From Clostridiaceae bacterium (lineage in GTDB: Bacteria > Bacillota > Clostridia > Acetivibrionales > DUMC01): DNA of 38,072 bases. The stretch spans positions 1 through 38,072 of the forward strand of contig DUMC01000162.1 of the NCBI GenBank assembly GCA_012840075.1. The letters are read 5' to 3'. Positions within the stretch are counted from its first letter, which is position 1, and every line of letters begins with the position of its first letter. A program made the position numbers and the translations under genes. A model generated the notes under the pieces. The model made no database searches. It had not been told where the DNA came from and worked only from the letters and a program-made list of their open reading frames with translations. Shown piece after piece: positions 2,750-28,666 of this stretch.

Positions 2750-3225
2750 AGTAAAAATTTATGGTGTTTGAATTAAATGGAGGGTTATTTTGCTTCATTC
2801 TTGTGAAGAAAGGAAGCCGTTCCATTTACTCTTTTGCAATGTGTTTCATTGTGTTTTGATTTACTAATTTTAAGATTAGCTTTACCGTAAACGGTTTATA
2901 CTATAATGTTGATAATATGTAAAAACTTATATAGAATAGAGATATACATAAAATTGCCATTTTATAAAGTTAAAAGTCTTTATCATGATATTCTCCTACA
3001 TAAAGTATATAAAGGGGGTTTCTTATAAAAGACACGCTTTGTTTTAGGAATGTTGTAATTCTTAATTATAAAGATTAATTTCTGCGTTAATTATTTACAG
3101 GATATATTACCAGAGATTTTAATCTGATTATTGACCACTGAAATAGTTGATCAACCGGAAATGCAGTTTTGTAAAAACCTTTTGGTAGAAAACTTTATAA
3201 ATCATGTATGGAGGTAGAGAATAAA
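2750..3225. other. 476-bp intergenic region with a possible promoter/operator
   Basis: No gene is visible. The region is AT-rich and holds TTTACC (2881-2886) and TATAAT (2902-2907) with a short 15-bp spacer; the operator-like AAACGGTTTA lies between them. A promoter here would leave a leader of about 310 bases before the GH20-like gene. The last bases carry GGAGG at 3210-3214, the ribosome binding site of the next gene. Confidence 0.4.
2886..2899. promoter_or_regulatory. LacI-family/cre-like operator
   Basis: CGTAAACGGTTTAT is a near-palindrome around CG. It matches the catabolite-repression consensus TGWAANCGNTNWCA at most inner positions but not at the outer ones. It sits between possible -35 and -10 boxes, a typical place for a LacI-type repressor. 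The same core AAACGGTTTA occurs at 6-15 at the left edge of the window. AT-rich DNA produces such matches by chance, so this is tentative. Confidence 0.3.
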
Positions 3226-5049: not shown

Positions 5050-5961
5050 ATGAATATGACTTGGTCAGTTATAGCTACATGGAAATTTTCAATAGATGGT
5101 GTAAAAGCAGCCGGCAAACTGATTGAAGACGGCGGAAAATCCCTTGATGCAGTAGAACTGGTAGCAAGGTATGTTGAGGATGATCCTTCAGTTGATTCAG
5201 TAGGTTATGGAGGTATTCCCAATATTGAAGGAGAAGTGGAACTTGATGCAGCCATTATGAATGGTGAAGATCTTTCAATAGGCGTTGTTATGGGAGTAAA
5301 AGGTTATAAAAACCCAATCAGTATAGCCCGCAAAGTTCTTACCGATTCTCCTCACAATATTCTCATAGGACAGGGAGCCGAGGAGTTTGCAGCAAGAATT
5401 GGTTTTGAAAAAGCGATTCTCCTTACAGACGAAAGCATAAAGAAATGGCTCGAGAGAAAAAAACAATTAGCAACAAGCAGTAAAGAAAATAAAGGTTGCA
5501 ATAAAGAGAATTGCGATATATATGGACATGATACAGTAGGCATTGTTGCCCTTGATATATTTAAAAATATGGCCTGTGCTACTTCAACCAGTGGTATTGC
5601 CATGAAACAAAGGGGCAGGGTAGGAGACAGTCCATTAGTGGGATCCGGCTTTTATGTTGATAATTACATAGGTGGGGCTGCAGCTACCGGCCTAGGAGAA
5701 GATATTATGAAAGGATGCATTTGTTTTTATGCCGTACAATTAATGGGTGAAGGATACAGCCCTCAGGAAGCTGCAGAACTTGCTGTAAAGAAAATACATT
5801 ACAGGCTTTTCGAAAAAAACGGTAAAGTGGGAAACATTGCCATTGTTTGTGCAGACAATAAAGGTAATTTCGGAGGAGCAGCAAATCACGAAGGGTTTGA
5901 GTATGCAGCAGCTTCAGATAAGACTTTACCGGCGATATATAAAGTGAAATCCGTTGTTTGA
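5050..5961 (+). CDS. Glycosylasparaginase (N4-(beta-N-acetylglucosaminyl)-L-asparaginase)
   Basis: An Ntn-hydrolase of the aspartylglucosaminidase family, which splits the GlcNAc-Asn bond left after degradation of N-linked glycoproteins. The 303-residue precursor contains GHDTVGIVALD at 159-169. The family matures by self-cleavage between Asp161 and Thr162, making Thr162 the N-terminal nucleophile of the beta subunit. Substrate-binding motifs GRVGDSPLVGSG and AATGLGED follow in the expected order. There is no signal peptide, so it should act on imported glycoasparagine in the cytoplasm. GGAGGG at 5041-5046 supports ATG 5050. It has its own promoter. The insert before the cleavage site (SSKENKGCNKENC) is hydrophilic and probably a processed loop. 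The main alternative is an isoaspartyl peptidase/type III asparaginase, but the HDTVG context favours glycosylasparaginase. Confidence 0.9.
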   Translation: MNMTWSVIATWKFSIDGVKAAGKLIEDGGKSLDAVELVARYVEDDPSVDSVGYGGIPNIEGEVELDAAIMNGEDLSIGVVMGVKGYKNPISIARKVLTDSPHNILIGQGAEEFAARIGFEKAILLTDESIKKWLERKKQLATSSKENKGCNKENCDIYGHDTVGIVALDIFKNMACATSTSGIAMKQRGRVGDSPLVGSGFYVDNYIGGAAATGLGEDIMKGCICFYAVQLMGEGYSPQEAAELAVKKIHYRLFEKNGKVGNIAIVCADNKGNFGGAANHEGFEYAAASDKTLPAIYKVKSVV

Positions 5962-6925: not shown

Positions 6926-7612
6926 ATGAGCGAAAAAACAAAGGTTCTTGTAATTGATGATGATGTCAATATTTGCGAAGTAATAAGGCTTTATATGGAA
7001 AAGGAAGGTTTCCAGGTACATTCGGTGTATAACGGTAAAAAAGCGATTGAAGAGTTTAGCCAATTAGCTCCTAATATTGTAATTCTTGATATAATGCTAC
7101 CCGGAGCTGACGGATGGCAAGTTTGCCGTGAAATAAGAAAGGTAAGCAACATTCCTATTATTATGCTCACGGCTAAAGGTGAAACCTTCGACAAAGTTTT
7201 AGGACTGGAACTTGGTGCGGATGATTATATAGTAAAACCTTTTGAACCGAAAGAACTGGTTGCAAGGGTCAAAGCAGTTTTAAGGAGGTATGAAAGAAGG
7301 GATCTTGATACGGAGGAAGTGGTCTTTCCAAATCTTGTTATAAATAAATCAACCTATACTGTAAAAATTAACGGTAAAGAAATGGAACTTCCTCCGAAGG
7401 AACTGGAACTTTTATTTTTCCTGGCATCAAATCCAAACAAGGTTTTTACGAGAGAGCAACTTCTTGAGCATGTATGGGGATTTGATTTTTACGGAGATTC
7501 AAGAACCGTAGATGTTCATATAAAAAGGCTCAGGGAAAAGCTGAATACCCCAAACGCTTCTTGGCAGCTCAAGACTGTATGGGGGGTAGGCTACAAGTTT
7601 GAGGTGAAATAA
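6926..7612 (+). CDS. OmpR/PhoB-family response regulator
   Basis: 228 residues. The receiver domain (about 5-120) has the acidic pocket IDDD near residue 10, phospho-acceptor D55 in VILDIMLPG, the switch Thr in MLTAKG and Lys in IVKPFEP. The C-terminal winged helix (about 130-228) has the recognition-helix region SRTVDVHIKRLREKL. It should bind DNA as a dimer after phosphorylation by the kinase encoded immediately downstream. Stop and next start share a base (TAATG at 7610-7614), so the two are translationally coupled. Start ATG 6926 has GGGAGG at 6907-6912. The htrA-type gene downstream is a probable target, by analogy with CssRS; that is inference. Confidence 0.92.
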   Translation: MSEKTKVLVIDDDVNICEVIRLYMEKEGFQVHSVYNGKKAIEEFSQLAPNIVILDIMLPGADGWQVCREIRKVSNIPIIMLTAKGETFDKVLGLELGADDYIVKPFEPKELVARVKAVLRRYERRDLDTEEVVFPNLVINKSTYTVKINGKEMELPPKELELLFFLASNPNKVFTREQLLEHVWGFDFYGDSRTVDVHIKRLREKLNTPNASWQLKTVWGVGYKFEVK

Positions 7613-9114
7613 TGTTCAAATCCTTGTTTTCAAAACTAGTTGCGATGTTTATAGCAACAATTATTTTCAGCTTTTCCATAGCCGGCATTACCTTGTACTA
7701 CACCCTAGGCGTATATGTTTCTGAGGAAAAAGTAAGGAATTTGGATTTAAGTGGTGAGGAAATAAGTAAGTATTTGGGAATATACCTTGATAATTTAGGC
7801 AATCCAATAGCTCAAGTCATGCTTGAGTATGTTATGGATTCATACCGACAAAATACCGGTGCTTATATCTGGATAACAAATCAGAAAGGAATAATAGTAT
7901 TTTCAAGTCCGAATGTAAGGCTTATTGATAAGCGTGTTGTTAATAACCTAAAATTTGAACAGGGATACTATGGCCTTCCTGATGAACGGCAATATAAGAA
8001 TGTATTTTTAGGTATTGATCCGGTTATAGAAAAAGGTGATTTTTACGGGCTTTTCAAGGAAACGGGCTGGTCTTGGTTGGTAGTGCAAAAACCTTTTAAA
8101 TACAAAGATACGGGTGGTGATGAACAGGTTGTAGCAGCCATATATTTGATTACACCTATTTCCGAGGTGCATAAGACAAGAAGTACGGTATACAGGTTCT
8201 TTTTGATTTCTATAATAGTTTCAATATTAGTTTCAACATCCCTGGTATACTTTTTCTCAAGAAAAATTACGAAACCGTTGAAAGAAATAAGAGATGCAGC
8301 AAAGGTCATATCTGAAGGAGAGTTTGATAAAAGATTGAATATCAATTCCAAGGATGAGATCGGTGAACTGGCAAAGAGTTTTAATCAAATGGCTGCTGAT
8401 TTGGAAAGATTGGAGGAAATGAGGAGGGGCTTTATTGCTAATGTATCTCATGAGCTGAGAACACCTATGACTTCGATAAAAGGATTTATTGAAGGAATAT
8501 TGGATGATGTAATACCCCAAGAAAAGCATAAGGAATATCTTGAAATTGTGCGGAATGAAATAGCCAGGCTCAACAGGCTTGTAAATGACTTGTTGGACCT
8601 TGCAAAAATGGAATCGGGAGAACTTCAGTTAGTTTATACAAATTTTAATATAAATGAATTAATACGACGCTGTATTATTAAACTTGAAAGCATTATAACC
8701 GAAAAAGGTCTTGAAGTTATTGCAAATTTTGATGAGGATACGCTTGTTACTGCTGATATTGATGCTATTGAAAGAGTGTTGATTAATTTAATACACAACG
8801 CTGTTAAATTCACCCCTTCCGGAGGTATTATCGGGGTAAATACTGAAATTGATAATAACAATGATAAAGTTATTATTTCAATAGCTGACACAGGCATAGG
8901 CATTTCAAAAGAAGATTTAGACAGAATTTGGGAGCGTTTTTATAAAGTTGATAAGTCAAGAAGCCTCGATACTCTCGGTACAGGACTGGGTTTATCCATA
9001 GTCAAAAATATTGTAATGGAACATGGGGAAAAAATCTGGGTAGAAAGCGAAGTAGGAAAAGGCACCACTTTTTATTTTACACTCAAAAAAGCCAAAAATG
9101 CCTATAAAAATTAA
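7612..9114 (+). CDS. Membrane sensor histidine kinase
   Basis: 500 residues. Membrane segment at about 9-31, an extracytoplasmic sensor domain of about 160 residues (33-190), a second membrane segment at about 194-215, HAMP at 216-268, then HisKA with phospho-acceptor H280 in FIANVSHELRTPM. The ATPase domain has an N-box (LINLIHNAVKFTP), G1 (DTGIGI) and G2 (GTGLGLSIV). It autophosphorylates and passes phosphate to the regulator encoded just upstream, which its ATG overlaps by one base. The architecture resembles secretion-stress kinases such as CssS, and the next gene is an HtrA protease, but the sensor domain gives no direct clue to the signal. Confidence 0.92.
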   Translation: MFKSLFSKLVAMFIATIIFSFSIAGITLYYTLGVYVSEEKVRNLDLSGEEISKYLGIYLDNLGNPIAQVMLEYVMDSYRQNTGAYIWITNQKGIIVFSSPNVRLIDKRVVNNLKFEQGYYGLPDERQYKNVFLGIDPVIEKGDFYGLFKETGWSWLVVQKPFKYKDTGGDEQVVAAIYLITPISEVHKTRSTVYRFFLISIIVSILVSTSLVYFFSRKITKPLKEIRDAAKVISEGEFDKRLNINSKDEIGELAKSFNQMAADLERLEEMRRGFIANVSHELRTPMTSIKGFIEGILDDVIPQEKHKEYLEIVRNEIARLNRLVNDLLDLAKMESGELQLVYTNFNINELIRRCIIKLESIITEKGLEVIANFDEDTLVTADIDAIERVLINLIHNAVKFTPSGGIIGVNTEIDNNNDKVIISIADTGIGISKEDLDRIWERFYKVDKSRSLDTLGTGLGLSIVKNIVMEHGEKIWVESEVGKGTTFYFTLKKAKNAYKN

Positions 9115-15474: not shown

Positions 15475-16380
15475 TTGAGTTTATCCAGGTCCAGAATAAT
15501 AAATTACAGGTTTTTTATCCATTTATTGTTTTTAGTAGTTTGTATTATATTCTTTATCATTCCGTTCGCTCTGGTAATTATGGTTTCTTTTACAGATGAA
15601 GACGTTATTAAAGAGTTTGGATATCAATTATTCCCTAAAAAGCTTTCCCTGGAGGCATATAGATATGTTTTTAACAGCCCGAGAAAAATGATTAATGCTT
15701 ATTTAGTAACAGCAGCACAAGCCTTTTTGTGTACTTTTCTTTCCGTATTGTTGATGGCATTATGTGCTTATCCTTTATCACGAAGAAATTTTATATTTAA
15801 AAAGCATCTTACCGTTTTTCTGTTGATTACTATGCTTTTCGGCGGAGGATTAGTACCATCTTATATCCTCAATACACAGTATCTGAAATTGGGAAACACC
15901 TTTTGGATTTATATTCTGCCTCACTTAGCCAGTGCTTTTCATATCATCGTTTTTAGAACTTATTTTCAAGGTCTTCCTGAAACCATGTTAGAGTCAGCTA
16001 AATTGGACGGTGCAAGTGAGTTAAGACTATTTTGGCAAATGATACTTCCGCTTTCAACACCTGTTTTAGCAACAATTTCCTTTTTAGTTGTATTGGACCG
16101 TTGGAATGATTGGTTTACTTCACTGATCTACATAAGAAATCAAGATCTTTATACCTTGCAATATCTTCTTCAAAGAATATTGAATGATATGGAATTTATT
16201 AAGAAGATGGCTGCTGAGACTACCGGATATGAAGAATTACAAGTTATGTTAGATAGTATTCCCGGTGAAGCCATGAGATTTGCTTTGGCAATTGTAGCTG
16301 CGGGTCCTATGATGGTGGTATTTCCGCTATTTCAGAAATATTTCGTCAGCGGTCTTACGATAGGAGCTATGAAAGGTTAA
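15475..16380 (+). CDS. ABC sugar transporter permease, LplC/YtcP type
   Basis: 301 residues, about six membrane helices. It should pair with an LplB-type permease and a shared ATPase to import oligosaccharides delivered by a binding lipoprotein. The EAA loop that contacts the ATPase is present (ETMLESAKLDGASELRLFWQ followed by MILPLSTP). The C-terminus QKYFVSGLTIGAMKG is diagnostic of the LplC subgroup. It starts at TTG 15475 with GGAGGAGG at 15458-15465; no better ATG exists. The LplB partner normally encoded just upstream is missing, so the transporter would need one from elsewhere. The predicted binding protein follows after 275 bases. Confidence 0.88.
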   Translation: MSLSRSRIINYRFFIHLLFLVVCIIFFIIPFALVIMVSFTDEDVIKEFGYQLFPKKLSLEAYRYVFNSPRKMINAYLVTAAQAFLCTFLSVLLMALCAYPLSRRNFIFKKHLTVFLLITMLFGGGLVPSYILNTQYLKLGNTFWIYILPHLASAFHIIVFRTYFQGLPETMLESAKLDGASELRLFWQMILPLSTPVLATISFLVVLDRWNDWFTSLIYIRNQDLYTLQYLLQRILNDMEFIKKMAAETTGYEELQVMLDSIPGEAMRFALAIVAAGPMMVVFPLFQKYFVSGLTIGAMKG

Positions 16381-16655: not shown

Positions 16656-18311
16656 ATGAAAAAGTTAAGAAAAACTTTATGTGCTTTAATTGCCGTTTTG
16701 ATGTCGGCTGCATTATTCTTAACTGCATGTAGTACAAAGGTAGAGGTTTCTCAAAAAAACTCAAATTCAGCATCAGATACACAAGTAATGGAACCAAAGA
16801 TGCCGGAACCTGTTACACTACGGTATGTGACAATCGGACCGTCAAAGTCCAAGGATTATGATAAGGTTATTGAGGAATTCAACAAGAAGCTTGCTGAGGT
16901 ACTACCAAATACTACTGTAGAAATAGAACCTATAGCAAATTCCGAATACAAGCAGAAATGGGATCTAATGATGGCAGCAGGAGAAGAAATTGATATTGCC
17001 TGGACCGGGTACTTGGTTCCTTTGGCAGATGAAGTTGCGAAGGGATCTTATATGGCTTTGGATGAATTGTATAACATGTATGGCACAGATATTAAGAAGG
17101 AAGTTCCGGAATGGTTCATCGATATGGGAAGGTGCAAAGGGAAATTGTACTGTATGCCGACTTATAAAGATACGGTAGAGCTTAAAATGGGAATGTATAC
17201 TCCTCATGAATATTTTGAAAAATACTGGGATATGTCATGGAGTAAAGTATTCCTTGAACCAAATACCACTTACCGTCAAGGAACCAAGGAAATGTATGAC
17301 GTTTTTGAAGAATATATGAGAAGACTGAAGGAAGCAGGTAAATTGCAGTCCGGGTTTAGCCAGTGGGTATGGCTCATTAATTCCGGTATAAGATTGACAG
17401 GTACAGATGACCCATCAATGATACGGCTGCCGCTTAGAGGACAGAAATGGGATTTGACCGTAAGAAATTACTACGAATTACCGGAAGTAAAGCTAATGTA
17501 TGAAACAATGGCGGACTGGTATAAAAAAGGGTATATTCGTAAAGACATTTTAAGTTTGGAGAACCCAAGAGCATATGAAAACATTACTTCCGGCTAAGAA
17601 GGCTATATAGCATGGTTCCACCAATATAGCGATGATAAGAATCCTAATTCCGACTACAGAGTTATTGTTGACAGCAAAGGTATTAATCCACCTTTGGCGC
17701 AGGTAAAACTTGAGCAAGACTATTACATAAGCAGGCTTGATGCTTCTTCTGCACTTGCAATACCCAGGACAAGTAAAAACCCTGAAAGAGCAATGCAATA
17801 CATTAATGTTATGAATTCCTCCAAAGGAAAAGAAGTTTACCGCTTACTGGTATACGGAATTGAGGACGTTAATTATAGAAAACTGGCAGAAAACAGAATT
17901 GAATTGCTGCCCGGCGATGATCCGAAAAACCCGAATTATGTTGGTTTCACAAACTGGGCTGTCGGCAATCTCTATAATGCTTATGTAGTCGGTAAATCCG
18001 CATCTGACAATGCAATATCCTATTTATTTGAAGAACAGAATGCTAAAGCTATCGTTTCTCCTCTGATCGGTTTAAAACCGGATATTTCATCATTTACAAC
18101 GGAACTTACGCAGATAAGAGCGATAGTGAACGAATACCACAAAACGCTTTTAAGCGGGGCGTTGGGAGATGATTGGGAAGAAAAATATGAGGAATTCCTT
18201 GCAAAGCTGAAAGCTGCAGGAGTTGATAAGGTTAATGAAGAATTACAGAAGCAGGTTGATGAATTTATCAAGTCAAAGGGCTTAGACAAGAATAATATAA
18301 TAGCACAGTAA
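16656..18311 (+). pseudogene. Sugar-binding lipoprotein (LplA/YtcQ type), interrupted by an in-frame TAA
   Basis: Extracellular solute-binding protein of an oligosaccharide ABC importer. It begins with a lipoprotein signal (MKKLRKTLCALIAVL, lipobox LTAC, lipidated C25) and continues through the first lobe (VTLRYVTIGPSKSKDYDKVI). At codon 314 a TAA (17595-17597) breaks the frame after ENITSG. The same frame continues at once with EGYIAWFHQY and runs 238 codons to a normal C-terminus (KSKGLDKNNIIAQ). Both parts make one protein of about 551 residues, the usual length, so a single-base change to TAA is the simplest explanation. The upstream part alone lacks much of the second lobe. It pairs with the LplC-type permease upstream; a terminator follows. 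Confidence 0.88.
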
Positions 18312-20283: not shown

Positions 20284-20387
20284 TAAACTATGGTAATTAT
20301 CGTATAATTTAAGAGTTCCATAACCTTAGGTGTTATGGCCTATATTTGCGACAGCCAGATAATTATGTGATTGTTAGGAGGGGAATT

Positions 20388-22034: not shown

Positions 22035-22679
22035 ATGGATATTATTCAAAATCCTGTGTATATAGTCACCCAAAGGATGGTATCACCAAATGGTGAAATG
22101 GTAGTTGACTATCCGGTTATAGTTAGCATGCCCAATCAAGCCGTGCAATATAGAATAAACAGGGCTATTTTAAATTTAGTTAATAAATTGCATAATGAAC
22201 AGATAAGAAGATTGATTGAACAGGGATACAAGGATATCTCAAGATTATCCGTACAGGGATGGTATGAAATAAAAACAAACGAAAGAGGAGTATTAAGCTT
22301 GTCAATAGGGAATTATACTTTTGCTTATCCTTCCGCTCACGGCTTAACAATCATTAAATCATTGACATTTGATGTTAATACCGGAAAAATATATGAGCTT
22401 AAAGATTTGTTCAAACCCGGCAGCGATTATGTAAAGAAATTGTCTGCAGCTGTTAATGAGCAGATAAAACAGAGAGAAATTCCCTTATTGAGCCCATTTA
22501 AAGGAATAAAACCTGATCAAGATTACTACATAGCTGATAAAGTATTAGTTTTATACTTTCAGCTATATGAACTTGCTCCTTATTCTTACGGCTTTCCGCA
22601 ATTCCCGATATCGGTTTACAGTATCAGCGACATTATTACTGAAGACGGACCTCTTGGAAGGATGATGGCCAATATATAG
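22035..22679 (+). CDS. DUF4163/DUF3298 domain protein (PdaC/RsiV-like)
   Basis: 214 residues. The N-terminal half (about 1-110) fits DUF4163, and ISVYSISDI with the preceding FDVNTGKIYELKDLFKPG fits DUF3298. These paired domains occur in the peptidoglycan deacetylase PdaC and the anti-sigma factor RsiV, where they face the cell wall and may bind it or lysozyme. Unusually, no signal peptide or membrane helix is visible, and the protein starts directly MDIIQNPVYIVTQRM. AAGGGATGATGG precedes ATG 22035. A terminator at 22731 follows. No catalytic domain is attached, so its role is unclear; it could be a cytoplasmic relative or a protein that lost its export signal. Confidence 0.7.
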   Translation: MDIIQNPVYIVTQRMVSPNGEMVVDYPVIVSMPNQAVQYRINRAILNLVNKLHNEQIRRLIEQGYKDISRLSVQGWYEIKTNERGVLSLSIGNYTFAYPSAHGLTIIKSLTFDVNTGKIYELKDLFKPGSDYVKKLSAAVNEQIKQREIPLLSPFKGIKPDQDYYIADKVLVLYFQLYELAPYSYGFPQFPISVYSISDIITEDGPLGRMMANI

Positions 22680-22730
22680 ATAATAAAATTTCACATTAAC
22701 TTTTATACTTTATACAATGAATTATTGTTT

Positions 22731-22759
22731 ATTCCGGCTGATAGCTGGAATATTTTTTT
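22731..22759 (+). terminator. Rho-independent terminator
   Basis: ATTCCGGC (22731-22738) pairs with GCTGGAAT (22744-22751), one G-T wobble, loop TGATA, then seven T. It ends the DUF4163/3298 gene. The permease remnant begins 3 bases after it, with no room for that gene's own start or promoter. Confidence 0.85.
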
Positions 22760-22761
22760 AA

Positions 22762-23511
22762 TCTTGGGTTGGATTAGATCATTTTAAATATTTTCTAACT
22801 GACCGTAAGTTTTGGGAGGTTATGCGAAATACCATCATAATTAATCTTTATGATATCGCATTTGGTTTTACAGCTCCAATATTATTTGCACTGTTAGCAA
22901 ATGAGATTGCAAATAAATATTTCAAGCGAATAATGCAGACAATATCATATCTTCCTCATTTTTTGTCGTGGATAGTTGTTTCAGGAATATTTTACCAAAT
23001 CCTATCTCCAGTTTCGGGTATTGTGAATGAAGTGTTGAAAGTATTTGGAGTTGAACCCATATTTTTCATGACAGAAGTACGTTTTTTCAGATCAATTGTA
23101 GTAGTAGCTGAAATATGGAAAAATGTAGGATGGTCTGCTATACTATACTTTTCTGTTATATCAGGCATTGATACTCAATTGTATGATGCTGCAATGATTG
23201 ATGGTGCTGGCAAATTTAGACAAGCTATTCATATAACGCTTCCCAGCATGCTACCTATGATTACACTTTTATTGCTATTGAGAATTTCAAATATATTTAC
23301 AATAGGCTTTGAAAGAATATTTCTTATGCAAAATCCGCTTGTATACAAAGTTTCAGATGTTATAAGTACATATGTATATAGGTTGGGACTTGAACAGGCA
23401 CAGTACAGCCTGACAACTGCAATTGGTTTGACACAAAGCCTTCTGGGGTTTGTGCTTCTGATATCAGCAAATAAGATTTCACAGAAATTATCAGGATTAG
23501 GACTATATTAA
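22762..23511 (+). pseudogene. ABC sugar transporter permease, LplB type, 5'-truncated
   Basis: Inner-membrane permease partner of LplC-type proteins. Family-like coding sequence begins at 22765 (WVGLDHFKYFLTDRKFWEV) directly after a terminator and a TAA at 22759-22761, and continues in frame through RNTIIINLYDIAFGF. The first in-frame ATG, 22822, is internal to the conserved sequence. The first 50-70 residues, including the first membrane helix, are missing. The rest looks sound: EAA loop TQLYDAAMIDGAGKFRQAIH then ITLPSMLP, and a normal C-terminus. GGGAGG does stand before ATG 22822, so a shortened 229-residue form could be made. It precedes an LplC-type gene by 17 bases. Likely non-functional, the result of a deletion or rearrangement whose breakpoint lies near 22760. 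Confidence 0.8.
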
Positions 23512-23528
23512 AGAAGGGAGGGATAAGT

Positions 23529-24413
23529 ATTAGAACCGCTTATAAATCTAAATCCAGAATAATATTTGAAATATTCAATTATACTTTATTTACACTTTTT
23601 TGTCTGTCTATTATTTTACCTTTTGTCAATGTAATTGCAATTTCGCTTAGTAATATGGAAGAACAGCTAAAAGCCCCTATCGGATTAATTCCGAGAGGTT
23701 TAACATTTAGTGCTTATGAAAGAATTATTTTTAATCGTCAATTTGTGCGTACTTTTTTCAATACGGTATTTTTAACGGTAGTGAAAACAGCACTTGTTAT
23801 AGTGATTTCGCTGGCAGCTGGGTATGCTCTGTCAAGCAAGTATTTAATAGGTAAAAAAATAATGATGACATATTTCTTAATTCCTATGTATTTTAGCGGT
23901 GGATTAATTCCTACTTATCTTCTTATTCAAGGTATTGGATTGAATAATTCATATGGAGCAATAATACTGCCTACTGCAGTTAATATATTCTATACAATAG
24001 TTTTTAAAAACATGATTACACAATTACCTGCAGAACTCATTGAATCAGCGGAAATAGACGGTGCCAGCCAACCTGTATTACTTTTTAAAATCATTATACC
24101 ACTAATTCTTCCAACAATAGCAGCATTTATAGTGTTTAGTTCAGTAGCATATTGGAATGAATGGTTTAGTGTAATGATATACATTCGTGATAAAGAGAAA
24201 TGGACACTTCAATATCAGCTTCGAGAAATTCTGCTATCAGCATCTTTAATGGATTCAGAAGCTGCTAAAGATATTGCAAACCCGAATCAGGTGTATTCGG
24301 AAGCATTAAAGATGGCTGCACTTATGATTACCATATTGCCTATAGTTGCAGTTTATCCGTTTGTACAGAAATATTTCATGTCAGGTGTTTTGGTTGGTGC
24401 AGTAAAAGGCTAA
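23529..24413 (+). CDS. ABC sugar transporter permease, LplC type, with ATT in place of a start codon
   Basis: Coding similarity starts well before the first in-frame ATG (23655). From 23529 the frame reads IRTAYKSKSRIIFEIFNY followed by the first membrane helix (LFTLFCLSIILPFVNVIAIS), just as in intact LplC proteins. AAGGGAGGG at 23514-23522 is ideally spaced for a start at 23529-23531, but that codon is ATT. Either ATT is used, as in rare cases such as infC, or the start has been lost. From 23529 the product is 294 residues; from 23655 it would be 252 and lack helix 1. The EAA loop (AELIESAEIDGASQPVLLFK) and C-terminus QKYFMSGVLVGAVKG are intact. It is a paralogue of the permease at 15475. 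Confidence 0.72.
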   Translation: MRTAYKSKSRIIFEIFNYTLFTLFCLSIILPFVNVIAISLSNMEEQLKAPIGLIPRGLTFSAYERIIFNRQFVRTFFNTVFLTVVKTALVIVISLAAGYALSSKYLIGKKIMMTYFLIPMYFSGGLIPTYLLIQGIGLNNSYGAIILPTAVNIFYTIVFKNMITQLPAELIESAEIDGASQPVLLFKIIIPLILPTIAAFIVFSSVAYWNEWFSVMIYIRDKEKWTLQYQLREILLSASLMDSEAAKDIANPNQVYSEALKMAALMITILPIVAVYPFVQKYFMSGVLVGAVKG

Positions 24414-24557: not shown

Positions 24558-26219
24558 ATGAAAAAGAAGGGATATGTCTTTATAATCCTGGTTATATTAG
24601 TTTTGTCAGGTTTATTAATGACATTAATTGTTAATGCTGAAGACGGTAATTTAATAGCAAATCCGTCATTTGACGAAGGATTGGATGGATGGAAACCGTT
24701 TTCTGAAACATCATCAATTGTCTGGGACAATACAAAATATTATAGTGCTCCGGCCTCACTTAAAGTTGAGTATGTTGATGAAAGAAATGCTGCTCAATTA
24801 AGCGCACCTATTGTTTTTACAGATGAAACTGTTACAAAGCTTGAGGTAAGCTACCAGGGTTTCAGGGAAGATGCTGAAACCAATGCGCTTGTAACATTAC
24901 AGCTAGCAATTACATTCAATGATGGTACGAAAGAAACCTTTTATCCAGCGGAATTAAGACTATATCCGAATGAAGCTGGGGAATGGAAACAAAAATCTGC
25001 ATTGTATACTGCACCGGAGGGAAAAAACATAAGTGTTGTACAAGTCTATTTAATTAATAATGCAGTTAATATTGAAGGATATAATAAATCTGTGTGGTTT
25101 GATGATGTATATTTAGCTATACCGGAAGAAAATAAAAGGATTGAGATTTCGGGACTTGAACCTCTTATGGTTGAGCAAACGACACAGGCAATAGTAAAAT
25201 GTTTTGATGCAGATGGTTCATATGAAATTATAGAAGAAGGCATTACATTTTCAAGCAGTAATCCGGAAGTTGCAACAGTCGATGTTTCAGGTTGTGTTGT
25301 TGCAGTCGGAGTTGGTAAGACCATAATTCGTGCACAGTATAAACAATATTATGCAGAATATGAATTAATAGTATATGATTACGATGTTAATCTAGTTCAG
25401 AATGGCTCATTTGAAGAGAATTTAGACGGATGGGTACCGTTTAACGCTACTTCACAAAAAGAACGTGATACAGAAATGTATTACAGTGCCCCGGCTTCGA
25501 TGAAGATCCTATATACAACTGAAACCAATTCCTTTAAACAAGAACCATATCCCGAACTACCTGCAGGAGTAACCCACCTTAAAGCTGAGTATAAAGGATA
25601 CCGAGTAAATAATAACGCTACAAGAGCTATTGTTACAATGCAGCTAAAAATATTTTTCGATGATGGTACAACCACAACACATTATCCGGCTGATTTTTGG
25701 CTGTTGCCTGATGATGCGGGAAAATGGGTTCATAAATCTACTTTATATGCTGCACCTGAAGGAAAAACTATAAAGCATGTTCAAGTATTTTTATTAAATT
25801 ACTCACGAAATGCGCAAGAACAGCAGGGAGTTGTATATAATACACCTGCGTATTTTGATGATGTAAAAGTTACTATTGCAAATGTTCCCACAAGTGGTGA
25901 TGATGAAACAAAACCGTTTACAATAAACAATCCAATAATCGATAGAGAATCAGGAGGTATATCAGTCCAGGTTACTGTATCACCGAGGGCAGGTTCAAAT
26001 GGCGGTGAAGCAGTTGTAATATTCAAGCTGATGGATGGAAATACAGTTAAGAGTTTAATTGGAATAAAAGGCAATATTAAGGAAGCCAAAACATTGACAG
26101 GACAATTTTTTGGACATTCAGGCGATCAATATAGTGTTAAAGTTTATGTATGGGATAAACTTGACAATTCTTTAGATAGTACAGGTGTAAACCTTGCAGA
26201 ACCAGTAGAAATAAACTAA
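24558..26219 (+). CDS. Secreted protein with two CBM4/9-like modules and a Big_2-like domain
   Basis: 553 residues with a signal peptide (MKKKGYVFIILVILVLSG, cleavage near VNA-ED). Module A (about 30-190) starts NLIANPSFDEGLDGW and module B (about 277-445) starts NLVQNGSFEENLDGW. Both share the YYSAPAS segment and the pattern of carbohydrate-binding family 4/9-type beta-sandwiches, so they are an internal duplication. Between them FSSSNPEVATVDVSG is a bacterial Ig-like (Big_2) signature. The last ~100 residues (TINNPIIDRESGGISVQVTV) look like a further beta-sandwich. No catalytic domain or cell-wall anchor is seen. AGGAGG before ATG 24558 is a good ribosome binding site. It probably captures glycan outside the cell, perhaps with the SLH protein encoded next; that role is inference. 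Confidence 0.75.
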   Translation: MKKKGYVFIILVILVLSGLLMTLIVNAEDGNLIANPSFDEGLDGWKPFSETSSIVWDNTKYYSAPASLKVEYVDERNAAQLSAPIVFTDETVTKLEVSYQGFREDAETNALVTLQLAITFNDGTKETFYPAELRLYPNEAGEWKQKSALYTAPEGKNISVVQVYLINNAVNIEGYNKSVWFDDVYLAIPEENKRIEISGLEPLMVEQTTQAIVKCFDADGSYEIIEEGITFSSSNPEVATVDVSGCVVAVGVGKTIIRAQYKQYYAEYELIVYDYDVNLVQNGSFEENLDGWVPFNATSQKERDTEMYYSAPASMKILYTTETNSFKQEPYPELPAGVTHLKAEYKGYRVNNNATRAIVTMQLKIFFDDGTTTTHYPADFWLLPDDAGKWVHKSTLYAAPEGKTIKHVQVFLLNYSRNAQEQQGVVYNTPAYFDDVKVTIANVPTSGDDETKPFTINNPIIDRESGGISVQVTVSPRAGSNGGEAVVIFKLMDGNTVKSLIGIKGNIKEAKTLTGQFFGHSGDQYSVKVYVWDKLDNSLDSTGVNLAEPVEIN

Positions 26220-26240
26220 CGATAGGATTATGCAAAAGAG

Positions 26241-26267
26241 AATCTTACCCGGTTTCCGGGTAAGATT
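26241..26267. terminator. Strong intergenic hairpin without a T-tract
   Basis: AATCTTACCCGG (26241-26252) and CCGGGTAAGATT (26256-26267) form a perfect 12-bp stem with a TTT loop. No T-run follows, so it is not a standard intrinsic terminator. It may protect or process the mRNA and separate expression of the secreted protein from that of the SLH protein. Confidence 0.6.
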
Positions 26268-26310
26268 CAATCATGGTTAAGATCCCATCATGAAAGTGAG
26301 GATGATTGTT

Positions 26311-28539
26311 ATGAGAAAGATGCTTAGTTTTGTTATAGTACTTGCTATCTTCCTGACTGTTGTTACTATCGGTGCGAATGCAGAGGTACGTATAACACTA
26401 AGAGATATACAATCCGTGTATATAGGTGAGACGGTCACAATATCCGGAACAACCGCATTTCCTGAAATAAATATAAAAGTATTATCACCGGATAATACAA
26501 TATATGATGTTGAAACAGTAATGTGTTCCAATGGTGAGTTCTCATATATAATGGGTATATCGGACAATGCTCTGTGCGGAATATATAAAGTTATTGCCGG
26601 TGTAGGAGATGATGTAGCAGTTGGTGAGTTTGAAGTTAGACAGAAAAGCAGCGATAAAAGCAATGATGCGACACTAAGTTCTATAAAGGTTAATGGAGTG
26701 GAAATAACTGGTTTTTTACCTGAAACTAAAAACTATACTGTAACCGTTCCATATTATACTTCCGTTGTACCAGTAGTATCAGCTACAGCAACAGATAGCA
26801 ATGCAACAGTAGAAATAACACAAGCGGCAGCAATAGCACCTTACGGAACAACACCAGGATCAGAACATAAGGCAATTATTCTGGTAACTGCCGAGGATGG
26901 TGTCACAAAGAATACTTATACTGTAACATTTATAAAGGAGCGTACTCCGGATGAACAGACAGACCCAGGAGTTACAGAACCGGGTGAAACGGAAACAGAA
27001 GAACCGGGCTCCAAGGATCCGGGTCAGACAGATGAGCAGGGAGATGACCAAGAAGATGTAGAGCCAAAGGATACTACTGATAAAGAAGCCGCTGAAGAAA
27101 TAGTAAAGCTGATAGAAGGATTAGAAGATACAATTAGTGATATTTATAATACCCTGAATAAAATAAATGAACTAATTGAAGAAATAGATAATGCAGAAAT
27201 AGCCAGTGATATTGCAGAGTCCATAATTATTGGGACTGCAAGAACTACTGTCGGTTCAGACTTAAAATATAAGGGAAAGAAAGAAATAGAAAGAAAACTT
27301 ATTAAAATTTTAGAAAATGTAATTGCTAAAAAGTCCGAACATAAAATAGAAGCAAATGTAGTAGATTCGGAAGCAAGTGCAAAGATAGGTGAGGAACAAG
27401 TCAATGCCATATTGAGCAGCATGGATGAAGTAATAAAGCTAGTAGAAGAACAGAACAAAAAGCTTGAAGAACACGGCATTGAAAGTAAAATCGAGAAAAA
27501 AATAACGCTGACTATAGAAACAGATGTTGATGTATCAAGTATTATAACCAATATACCGACGGAAATATTTAACGCAGCAAAAGAAAAGGGTATTGAAAAG
27601 ATTGAAATAAAAACAGATGTAGCAAGTATAGTTATTCCTGTTAATTTTACAGAACAAATTCTACAGGCATCAAATATCATTGTAGAAGTCAAGAAAATCG
27701 GACTTAGTGATAATGAGAAGAGTAAGCTTTCCGATAGCCAGAGAGAACTATTGGAAAACCAGGAAACTATATATGATTTAAATATAGCAGCAGATGGTCA
27801 ACAAGTGCACGGATTCAATAATAAAGTCAGCGTAAGAATTGCGTATACATTGAAAGAAGGAGAAAATAAAGATTACATAACAGTCTTTTATATGTCTGAA
27901 GATGGTACGATTGAAAATATAGCAGGCAAATATGATGAAGAAACAAGTGAAATAGTGTTTAGCACAGACCACTTTAGTAAGTATGTTATTAAAAACATCA
28001 GTATAAAATTTAAGGACATACAAGAATCTTTCTGGGCAAGACAGTATATAGAATCTATGGCTTCAAAGGGTATAATAAGCGGAAAGCCTGGTGGAATTTA
28101 TGATCCGAACAGCTTGGTTACCAGAGCGGAATTTGCAAAGATGATTGTGATGGCAGCAGGATTGGTGGAAGAAGATGCAAAATGCAGTTTTGTTGATGTA
28201 TCTGAAAAACAATGGTACTACAAGTATGTTTCCTCTGCTGTAAAAGCGGGTATTATTGCTGGAAGACCTGATAATATATTTGCACCAAATGATAATATAA
28301 CAAGAGAAGAAATGGCTGTTATGATATATAGGGCTTTGGGAGAACGTCCTCCAAAGAATATCAATGAATTCCTTGAATTTAAGGACAAACAGGAGATTTC
28401 TGATTGGGCTAAAGAAGCTGTAGCTTCTGTTGTAAGATCGGAAATAATGAACGGAAAACCAGGAAATATAATGGATCCGAAGGGATATTCCACCAGAGCT
28501 GAAGCAGCTGCTGTTATTTACAGATACTTCAATAATTAA
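26311..28539 (+). CDS. Surface protein with cadherin-like beta-sandwich and three SLH domains
   Basis: 742 residues. The signal peptide ends near IGANA. An N-terminal beta region (about 25-105) is followed by a cadherin-like beta-sandwich (DATLSSIKVNGVEITGFLP to KNTYTVTFI, about 115-210) and a Pro/Glu/Gly/Thr-rich linker (about 213-255). A large central region of unknown fold is partly helical and acidic. Three C-terminal SLH domains start at about 566, 627 and 688 (for example FKDIQESFWARQYIESMASK and TRAEFAKMI). SLH domains bind pyruvylated wall polysaccharide and fix proteins to the cell surface. The frame opens at 26290, but GTGAGGA at 26296-26302 favours ATG 26311. No enzyme motif is visible; it may be a structural or glycan-holding partner of the preceding secreted protein. 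Confidence 0.85.
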   Translation: MRKMLSFVIVLAIFLTVVTIGANAEVRITLRDIQSVYIGETVTISGTTAFPEINIKVLSPDNTIYDVETVMCSNGEFSYIMGISDNALCGIYKVIAGVGDDVAVGEFEVRQKSSDKSNDATLSSIKVNGVEITGFLPETKNYTVTVPYYTSVVPVVSATATDSNATVEITQAAAIAPYGTTPGSEHKAIILVTAEDGVTKNTYTVTFIKERTPDEQTDPGVTEPGETETEEPGSKDPGQTDEQGDDQEDVEPKDTTDKEAAEEIVKLIEGLEDTISDIYNTLNKINELIEEIDNAEIASDIAESIIIGTARTTVGSDLKYKGKKEIERKLIKILENVIAKKSEHKIEANVVDSEASAKIGEEQVNAILSSMDEVIKLVEEQNKKLEEHGIESKIEKKITLTIETDVDVSSIITNIPTEIFNAAKEKGIEKIEIKTDVASIVIPVNFTEQILQASNIIVEVKKIGLSDNEKSKLSDSQRELLENQETIYDLNIAADGQQVHGFNNKVSVRIAYTLKEGENKDYITVFYMSEDGTIENIAGKYDEETSEIVFSTDHFSKYVIKNISIKFKDIQESFWARQYIESMASKGIISGKPGGIYDPNSLVTRAEFAKMIVMAAGLVEEDAKCSFVDVSEKQWYYKYVSSAVKAGIIAGRPDNIFAPNDNITREEMAVMIYRALGERPPKNINEFLEFKDKQEISDWAKEAVASVVRSEIMNGKPGNIMDPKGYSTRAEAAAVIYRYFNN

Positions 28540-28666
28540 AATTTCAAGACTAAATGAATTTAAATGATAATAAATGCCAATGCAAGAAAAATTGCTTGGT
28601 GCTTTATAACCATACATGCATCAAATAAAACAACATAATGTTATAAAAGCAGAGAGGTGTAAACTT

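Follow-up and report, generated by a model that had tools for sequence, protein, structure and literature searches.

Results

Organization of the gene pair

The DNA analysed here is a stretch of 38,072 nucleotides (hereafter the window) that constitutes contig C145 of the 3.78 Mb draft genome of a Clostridiaceae bacterium (G000 in our genome sets). It carries two neighbouring genes on the + strand: gene 1, encoding a secreted protein with duplicated carbohydrate-binding modules of the CBM4_9 family, and gene 2, encoding a secreted protein with three SLH domains. A C-terminal domain of the first protein (X) and an N-terminal domain of the second (Y) are the main subject of this work. A first-pass annotation of this DNA, made from the sequence letters, had placed both open reading frames correctly, and the pair comprises the following features (aa, amino acids).

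24558..26219, + strand: gene 1, secreted protein of 553 aa (signal peptide, CBM4_9, Big_2-like, CBM4_9, X)
24642..25121, + strand: first CBM4_9 module (aa 29-188), Pfam PF02018, boundaries by self-alignment
25242..25334, + strand: Big_2-like stretch (aa 229-259), below Pfam cut-off
25383..25877, + strand: second CBM4_9 module (aa 276-440), PF02018, 50% identical to the first
25914..26216, + strand: domain X, C-terminal ∼100 aa, proposed docking module (profile A1, 131.8 bits)
26290..28539, + strand: gene 2, secreted wall-anchor protein of 749 aa (signal peptide, Y, Cadherin-like, acidic/Pro linker, pre-SLH module, three SLH domains)
26392..26637, + strand: domain Y (aa 35-116), MG2-like beta-sandwich, proposed receptor of X (profile A2, 117.1 bits)
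26674..26934, + strand: Cadherin-like beta-sandwich PF12733 (aa 129-215), Pfam
27070..27984, + strand: pre-SLH module (aa 261-565), the earlier 'unknown central region' (profile and locus comparison, gene 2 model)
28009..28140, + strand: SLH domain 1, Pfam
28189..28320, + strand: SLH domain 2, Pfam
28378..28512, + strand: SLH domain 3, Pfam

As the first-pass annotation had proposed, gene 1 contains duplicated CBM4/9 modules around a Big_2-like domain: PF02018 (CBM_4_9) was matched in two stretches with 38.5 bits against a cut-off of 25.9, the two copies being identical at 79 of 159 aligned residues, and the Big_2 match stayed under its cut-off (19.3 bits, cut-off 22.8). Both proteins start with a hydrophobic signal-peptide-like stretch (by eye). 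No enzyme family reached its Pfam cut-off in either protein, in agreement with the annotated lack of enzymatic motifs, and at E ≤ 1 the only enzyme match in either was a sub-threshold, gamma-butyrobetaine-hydroxylase-like N-terminal one in gene 1 (12.8 bits, cut-off 22.8), which was taken as chance. Gene 1 gave no Pfam match to a wall-anchor family, and gene 2 none to a carbohydrate-binding family at E ≤ 1. The SLH protein annotated after gene 1 was confirmed by three SLH domains (125.8 bits), which together with the signal peptide seen by eye place gene 2 in the SLH wall-anchored class; its Cadherin-like domain, not named in the annotation, was recognized by PF12733 with 31.8 bits (cut-off 24.2). 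An origin of the pair from one gene split by mutation was ruled out, as the frames differ and each has its own signal-peptide-like start. Likewise, gene 1 as a full-length conserved family was discarded, no full-length relative being found in the 57 other genomes of the order searched.

Identification of domains X and Y

A search of the order with gene 1 brought up large proteins in three genomes (G047, G028 and G044) whose ends match the final ∼100 residues of the query. Past the match in these loci (L090-L093 and L095), the next gene encodes a secreted protein with a conserved domain of ∼80 residues at its mature N-terminus, and the same domain (∼82 residues) is also present in gene 2. The C-terminal domain, as defined by alignment A1, was designated X and the N-terminal domain, as defined by alignment A2, was designated Y; neither figures in the first-pass annotation. 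The window's X and Y are each one row of the very profile that scored them above, and X gave 126.8 bits over residues 453-553 of 553 of gene 1 in a profile search. Since Y was defined beside X in four genomes, the link between the two domains is tested by the other genomes alone.

Neither a dockerin family on gene 1 nor a cohesin family on gene 2 was found in Pfam at E ≤ 1, and no X was found in viral contigs. Against PDB sequences, the X profile produced a single weak match (E 0.015) and the Y profile four (E 0.14-0.64). The X/Y pair is undescribed in the literature searched, in which subscription papers and preprints were mostly beyond reach, and this is weak evidence of novelty.

X genes and Y genes lie side by side

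The 56 X matches in the loaded loci correspond to 49 distinct X genes (30 bits or more), after one duplicate (L183, the same as L164) and six weak internal matches (23-26 bits) had been dropped; four further matches, all weak or partial, lie outside this count (G047:C51, a 32-position fragment, G047:C11, G050:C328 and G078:C47). X ends at most 20 residues from the C-terminus in 49 of the 49 X genes, and at most one residue from it in 38. Three genes with too little DNA after X (L155, L156 and L161) leave 46 that are testable. A Y gene is present on the same strand within 155 base pairs (bp) in 42 of these 46, downstream in 40 and upstream in two (L226 and L227), and in 36 of 40 when only X genes outside the four Y-defining genomes are considered; since many of the genomes counted are related, these figures do not represent independent events. 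Forty of the 42 partners have the start of Y at residue 28-54, directly behind the signal peptide; in the other two it lies at residue 1010 of a GH10 enzyme (L158) and at residue 1123 of an SLH protein (L226). Looser arrangements were also seen. In L168 (at 512) a second X gene lies between the X gene and the Y gene, both X genes sharing the one Y gene; in L164 the Y gene is 807 bp from the X gene; and in L225 Y is 3.4 kb away, X being part of a fragment that directly follows a 1114-aa frame, itself next to the Y gene. In the window, gene 1, which contains the sole X match (E ≤ 0.001) of the genome, lies 70 bp from gene 2, its sole Y gene.

The same association was evident at the level of whole genomes. 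Among 391 genomes of the class, X was detected in four (the window's included) and Y in 11, with all four X genomes containing Y, and strong Y matches (E below 1e-15) occurred exactly in these four. Without the window's genome (390 genomes), X was detected in three and Y in ten, and all three X genomes contained Y (p 1.2e-5). Within the 58 genomes of the order, strong X matches were confined to G000, G028, G044 and G047 and strong Y matches to the same four, which are the discovery genomes and for which this result is no independent test; beyond these, G050 gave a weak X match, and weak matches to Y came from G006 and G007. In named genomes the wider X alignment A3, which already contained rows of G078, G164 and G207, revealed 15 loci in Clostridia metagenome-assembled genomes (MAGs), a Dethiobacter MAG, Aneurinibacillus and three Paenibacillus species. 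The Y gene adjoins the X gene in 12 of these 15 (in L164 at the said 807 bp), and the remaining three are cut off by the contig end at most 370 bases from X. The Paenibacillus paridis group (51 genomes) has both domains in 22, X alone in two, Y alone in two and neither in 25 (p 4e-10); the genomes scored as X alone do contain a weaker Y adjacent to X (33 and 24 bits), and in the direction from Y to X, the Y genes in G431:C53 and G433:C25 adjoin weaker X matches. With respect to the co-occurrence check suggested by the first-pass annotation, the exact pair of genes is thus rare, as follows from the missing full-length relatives of gene 1, whereas the pairing of X with Y is conserved.

Correlated divergence of X and Y

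From 38 neighbour pairs with three recognized SLH domains, thinned to 32, distance correlations of 0.74 between X and Y, 0.63 between Y and the SLH region of the same protein, and 0.54 between X and SLH were obtained. The partial correlation between X and Y given SLH was 0.61 (permutation p 0.0002), that between X and SLH given Y was 0.14 (p 0.03) and that between Y and SLH given X was 0.41. In the 25 pairs of the Paenibacillus group, the values were 0.79 for X-Y, 0.75 for Y-SLH and 0.69 for X-SLH, with a partial X-Y correlation given SLH of 0.57. Among 33 overlapping paralogue quartets, the pairings of X and Y agreed in 25 and those of X and SLH in 20.

Proteins that carry X or Y

Pfam analysis of 18 of the 49 X proteins revealed GH10, GH39, GH101-like, GH141-type, CBM35/CBM6, CBM4_9, LamG and aBig_2 domains, a PhoX phosphatase and an NAGPA phosphodiester glycosidase; the Dethiobacter X protein gave no Pfam match at E ≤ 0.001. 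The label 'non-catalytic' given to the pair by the first-pass annotation therefore fits these two proteins but not their kind, as X is found elsewhere on GH10, GH39, GH101-like, PhoX and other enzymes. The Y protein beside X is nearly always SLH-anchored, with the SLH domains following varied middles (Big_4, Cadherin-like, a proline-rich linker or the pre-SLH module). In the Dethiobacter alkaliphilus MAG (L164/L183), a protein with the order Y, Cadherin-like, Y has a hydrophobic C-terminal tail replacing SLH; it is encoded near a 217-aa X protein, and a separate Y-SLH protein is encoded about 5 kb upstream. G047, a genome with six strong X matches, encodes a 1027-aa SLH protein with three Y domains and four Big_4 domains (L091, 3544-6627, - strand), possibly a small scaffoldin.

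A sister genome of the window's, G002, has the order CBM4_9, Big_2, heparinase-like, pre-SLH and SLH in one 2432-aa chain, encoded beside permease-like genes and a solute-binding protein, and neither X nor Y was found in G002 by profile search. Compared with this single chain, X plus Y seems to stand in for a covalent link, the two domains appearing at the break.

X forms part of a larger C-terminal family, designated X'. In L158 (G078), GH3 and GH10 enzymes end in Y and then X', with a DUF1349-X protein between them, and these enzymes might be a chain clipped to each other. In L112, L113, L114 and L150, from genomes with weak Y, the gene before the Y gene has an Ig-like end (by eye); with a broad X/X' profile, L113 (E 1.2e-7) and L114 (E 2.6e-5) were matched, L150 was not significant and L112 had no listed match. 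The present definitions of X and Y may not cover the full breadth of the pair.

Structure models

An AlphaFold chain of locus L157, composed of X, the intergenic stretch, the signal peptide and Y, was modelled with 31 alignment rows. Both X and Y were predicted as beta domains, X being all-beta, mostly with per-residue confidence (pLDDT) values of 94-98. In structure searches the top matches of Y were macroglobulin-type domains of thioester proteins; the Y model aligns to those of TEP1r and alpha-2-macroglobulin over 84 residues with a root-mean-square deviation (rmsd) of 1.6-1.8 and Z about 12, at positions that we take to be MG2. The first two domains of complement C5/C3 are matched by X and Y in that order, with a joint rmsd of about 11, so that an order of MG1 then MG2 is suggested less firmly by the model. 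Pfam MG2 (PF01835) was above its cut-off in the Y proteins of L091 and L164, below it in nine (L159, L162, L165-L169 and the two L158 enzymes), and not listed at E ≤ 1 for the window's Y, nor in L160, L163 and L144. Cohesin and dockerin structures were not among the 50 matches listed in these structure searches, which excludes nothing.

In the model of gene 2 (predicted TM-score, pTM, 0.60), the Y and SLH parts are good and the pre-SLH part is folded, whereas residues 89-228 of the model, including the Cadherin-like domain, have pLDDT under 50. The SLH part matches that of Sap (3pyw) with an rmsd of 2.7 over 181 columns. The 50 matches listed in the structure search with gene 2 were mostly SLH and macroglobulin/Ig structures, and hence barely probed the pre-SLH fold, which is modelled as helices, an alpha/beta part and a beta part.

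The pre-SLH module is a general part of SLH proteins

The central region of gene 2, for which the first-pass annotation knew no matching domain, is a widespread pre-SLH module. It was matched in 46 of the 58 genomes of the order (its own included), which cover 23 of 30 genera, and the frames that contain it range from 115 to 9093 aa. The module is present in 29 of 30 loci, two of the 29 being short fragments, and in 27 of the 29 it ends nine residues before the first SLH domain; L087 is the locus in which it was not detected by local search. Its interpretation as a new sugar-binding domain special to gene 2 was therefore abandoned, and a role as a stalk module appears plausible. The window's genome, with 38 SLH matches, encodes a general SLH paralogue with the pre-SLH module at G000:C110, in a context common to G001 and G002. 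In L043, L044 and L045, an SLH protein of ∼900 aa carries the pre-SLH module, with a Big_5 domain in that of L043, the sole one scanned; its neighbours, common to related genomes, are by their N-termini presumably exopolysaccharide-type, CdaA-like and GlmM-like genes. In L153 (G050:C328), a 600-aa frame ending in X' precedes the gene for a 623-aa SLH protein that has the pre-SLH module, and Y was not found in genome G050 by profile search.

Genes surrounding the pair

The pair is placed, as annotated, between sugar permeases and a GH2 enzyme: two BPD_transp_1 permeases (Pfam) lie 5' of gene 1, and 3' of gene 2 a GH2 gene at 28616 is beta-glucuronidase-like but under the equivalog cut-off. The window further contains GH123-type genes at 1151 and 18443, a GH20-type gene at 3208, a xylulokinase-type kinase at 20346, permease genes at 15475, 22822 and 23655, and solute-binding-protein pieces at 16656 and 17694. 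The solute-binding-protein gene at 16656-18311 has an in-frame TAA at codon 314 (17595-17597), its frame being otherwise open to 18311. In the region of about 22640-23655, the permease frame at 22822 is short, with stop-interrupted permease-like sequence upstream in the same frame, and an open frame without a common start extends upstream of the permease at 23655. The import system adjoining the pair may thus be decayed or misassembled, and as these genes look damaged, an uptake role at the locus is uncertain.

Between genes 1 and 2, a perfect 11-bp inverted repeat with a 7-base loop was noticed by eye at 26240-26268; no T-run follows it on the + strand, and a short T-rich run does so on the - strand. 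Beside the GH20 gene lies an Asparaginase_2-family gene (5050-5961), for which N-glycan linkages are a conceivable target, and a response regulator/histidine kinase pair is located at 6926-9114.

Discussion

The partnership of X and Y is apparent from their position, their co-occurrence in genomes and their correlated divergence. With X at the end of one gene, Y at the start of the next and the partners conserved, the products of genes 1 and 2 can be regarded as one surface unit, and we consider it very likely that they function together. The earlier idea of a single surface device is supported by these facing domains, while its glycan-capturing part is suggested by homology to CBM4_9. Direct docking of X on Y, by which gene 2 would hold gene 1 at the wall, is the reading that we favour and judge to be probable. 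What we infer is the contact between X and Y, sugar binding by gene 1 and the identity of the captured glycan, for which the GH123, GH20 and GH2 genes hint at GalNAc and glucuronic acid as constituents. SLH domains bind the secondary wall polymer, and the three in gene 2 would make it the anchor, with the pre-SLH module and the linker as a stalk and Y at the mature N-terminus facing outwards. Gene 1 would be the cargo, with two CBM4_9 modules on a Big_2-like spine and X at its C-terminus. Binding of X to Y outside the cell would then keep the binding protein at the wall although it is separate from the anchor polypeptide, and glycans caught by the CBM4_9 modules would stay close to the locus-encoded system of uptake and intracellular glycosidases.

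A number of observations weigh against docking, or limit its reach. The window's pair is among the more diverged members, its X being 30-39% and its Y 31-46% identical to others. L249 has an X gene without detectable Y, the next gene being SLH-like at its end by eye, and the six weak X-like matches of 23-26 bits are internal rather than C-terminal. X' also occurs without a Y neighbour (L145 and L149). Conversely, the Y proteins of L143 (cut by the contig end) and L144 are not beside a detected X, nor is Y in the 2104-aa frames without detected SLH of G464 and G465, no X was detected beside the Y gene of G433:C12, and seven genomes of the class have weak Y matches and no X at the threshold used. 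In G078, Y lies near the end of GH3 and GH10 enzymes, outside SLH proteins. Agreement of nearest neighbours in other genomes is modest (X-Y in 23 of 38, X-SLH in 15, Y-SLH in 17), and the X-Y correlation might be inflated by co-inheritance, as X and Y mostly lie on one piece of DNA, or by SLH shuffling; an exchange of SLH domains between genes could account for part of it. In the L157 chain, no confident arrangement of the two domains was obtained (pTM 0.46), and as its alignment rows are unpaired and noisy, many with filler and partly out of frame, this result speaks neither for nor against docking.

A rival reading is that X and Y never touch and are Ig-type spacer or stability domains that travel as a gene-end/gene-start cassette; the X protein would then be released, or its own sugar-binding modules would hold it. 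In favour of this, each of the two has a common beta-sandwich fold, X' relatives without Y neighbours exist, the two are mostly contiguous in the DNA and no interface was predicted in the L157 chain. However, the partnership is kept where contiguity is lost, with the Y gene before the X gene in L226, L227 and L164 and a shared Y in L168; the divergence of X follows that of Y better than Y follows the SLH region of the same protein; and the genome co-occurrence of the domains is far above chance. We therefore regard such a cassette as unlikely, though it deserves more weight than the two alternatives that follow.

In the version of the first-pass annotation, the two proteins would be independent surface holders of the same sugar that do not bind each other. 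The CBM4_9 modules, the signal peptides, the SLH anchor and the sugar-use locus agree with this, but gene 2 lacks a carbohydrate-binding family at E ≤ 1, gene 1 lacks a wall-anchor family match, and the X/Y pairing elsewhere spans several kinds of cargo, phosphatases included, which makes independent holders improbable. Still less credible is an accidental pair, in which a secreted protein without relation to it (gene 1) happens to precede an ordinary SLH wall protein (gene 2). While the 38 SLH matches of the genome and the paralogue at G000:C110 show how common such wall proteins are, the sole X match of the genome is 70 bp from its sole Y gene, the same arrangement recurs across many genomes, and the co-occurrence already disfavours chance.

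We would give nearly even chances to a broader proposal: X and Y may be an undescribed wall-docking code of SLH-bearing Bacillota, a split MG1-MG2-like pair by which any X cargo is placed on any SLH- or membrane-anchored Y, the three-Y anchor included, in a manner resembling the cellulosome without cohesin or dockerin, in Clostridia, Dethiobacter, Aneurinibacillus and Paenibacillus. Such a code would explain the wall retention of exported enzymes that have no anchor of their own, also in Paenibacillus and Aneurinibacillus, would give a function to many unknown SLH genes beside genes for carbohydrate-active enzymes, and would provide a small orthogonal pair for display work, unrelated to cohesin and dockerin.

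Among known systems, SusD-type capture, to which the pair had been likened, is a loose analogy at most; the idea of a surface glycan holder beside an uptake system is shared, wall anchoring is here by SLH domains, and no SusD family was found at E ≤ 1 in either protein. Single-chain SLH-anchored polysaccharide-active proteins, as in G002, have the same wall anchor and modules, but join the binding or catalytic part to the anchor within a single polypeptide, whereas the window has a separate gene for each, with X and Y where the two are parted. The MG1-MG2 domains of alpha-2-macroglobulin and complement resemble the pair in the fold of Y and, in the L157 model, in the order of X and Y; they differ in that X and Y are on two proteins instead of one chain, that the relative placement is unmatched (rmsd about 11) and that no thioester protein is involved.

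The S1 protein of Paenibacillus curdlanolyticus B-6 is a scaffolding-like SLH protein for which a role in gathering enzymes, with neither cohesin nor dockerin, has been proposed; its SLH domains are N-terminal, and complex formation is reported to need glycosylation of S1 (PMC6823336). The likeness to X/Y, drawn from the description and not from sequence, lies in this proposed role of an SLH protein, and the accessible text describes no X/Y arrangement for S1 (PMC6823336). For cohesin and dockerin, the portions consulted describe a C-terminal module on a secreted protein with its partner on a separate SLH-anchored protein, and the non-covalent clipping of enzymes to the wall by an enzyme-borne module and an SLH-borne receptor (PMC5817068, PMC11557425). 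X/Y shares with cellulosomes, where dockerin-bearing proteins sit on SLH anchoring scaffoldins such as SdbA, the C-terminal cargo module and the separate SLH-anchored partner, and in one genome also an anchor with several receptor copies, the three-Y protein of G047. Dockerins are small helical calcium-binding modules, unlike X, which is all-beta in the L157 model. Our best reading is that attachment by X and Y works like that by dockerin and cohesin without being, by the tests made, a member of that family, and with an anchor gene that, unlike in the cohesin-dockerin system, is usually the immediate neighbour of one cargo gene.

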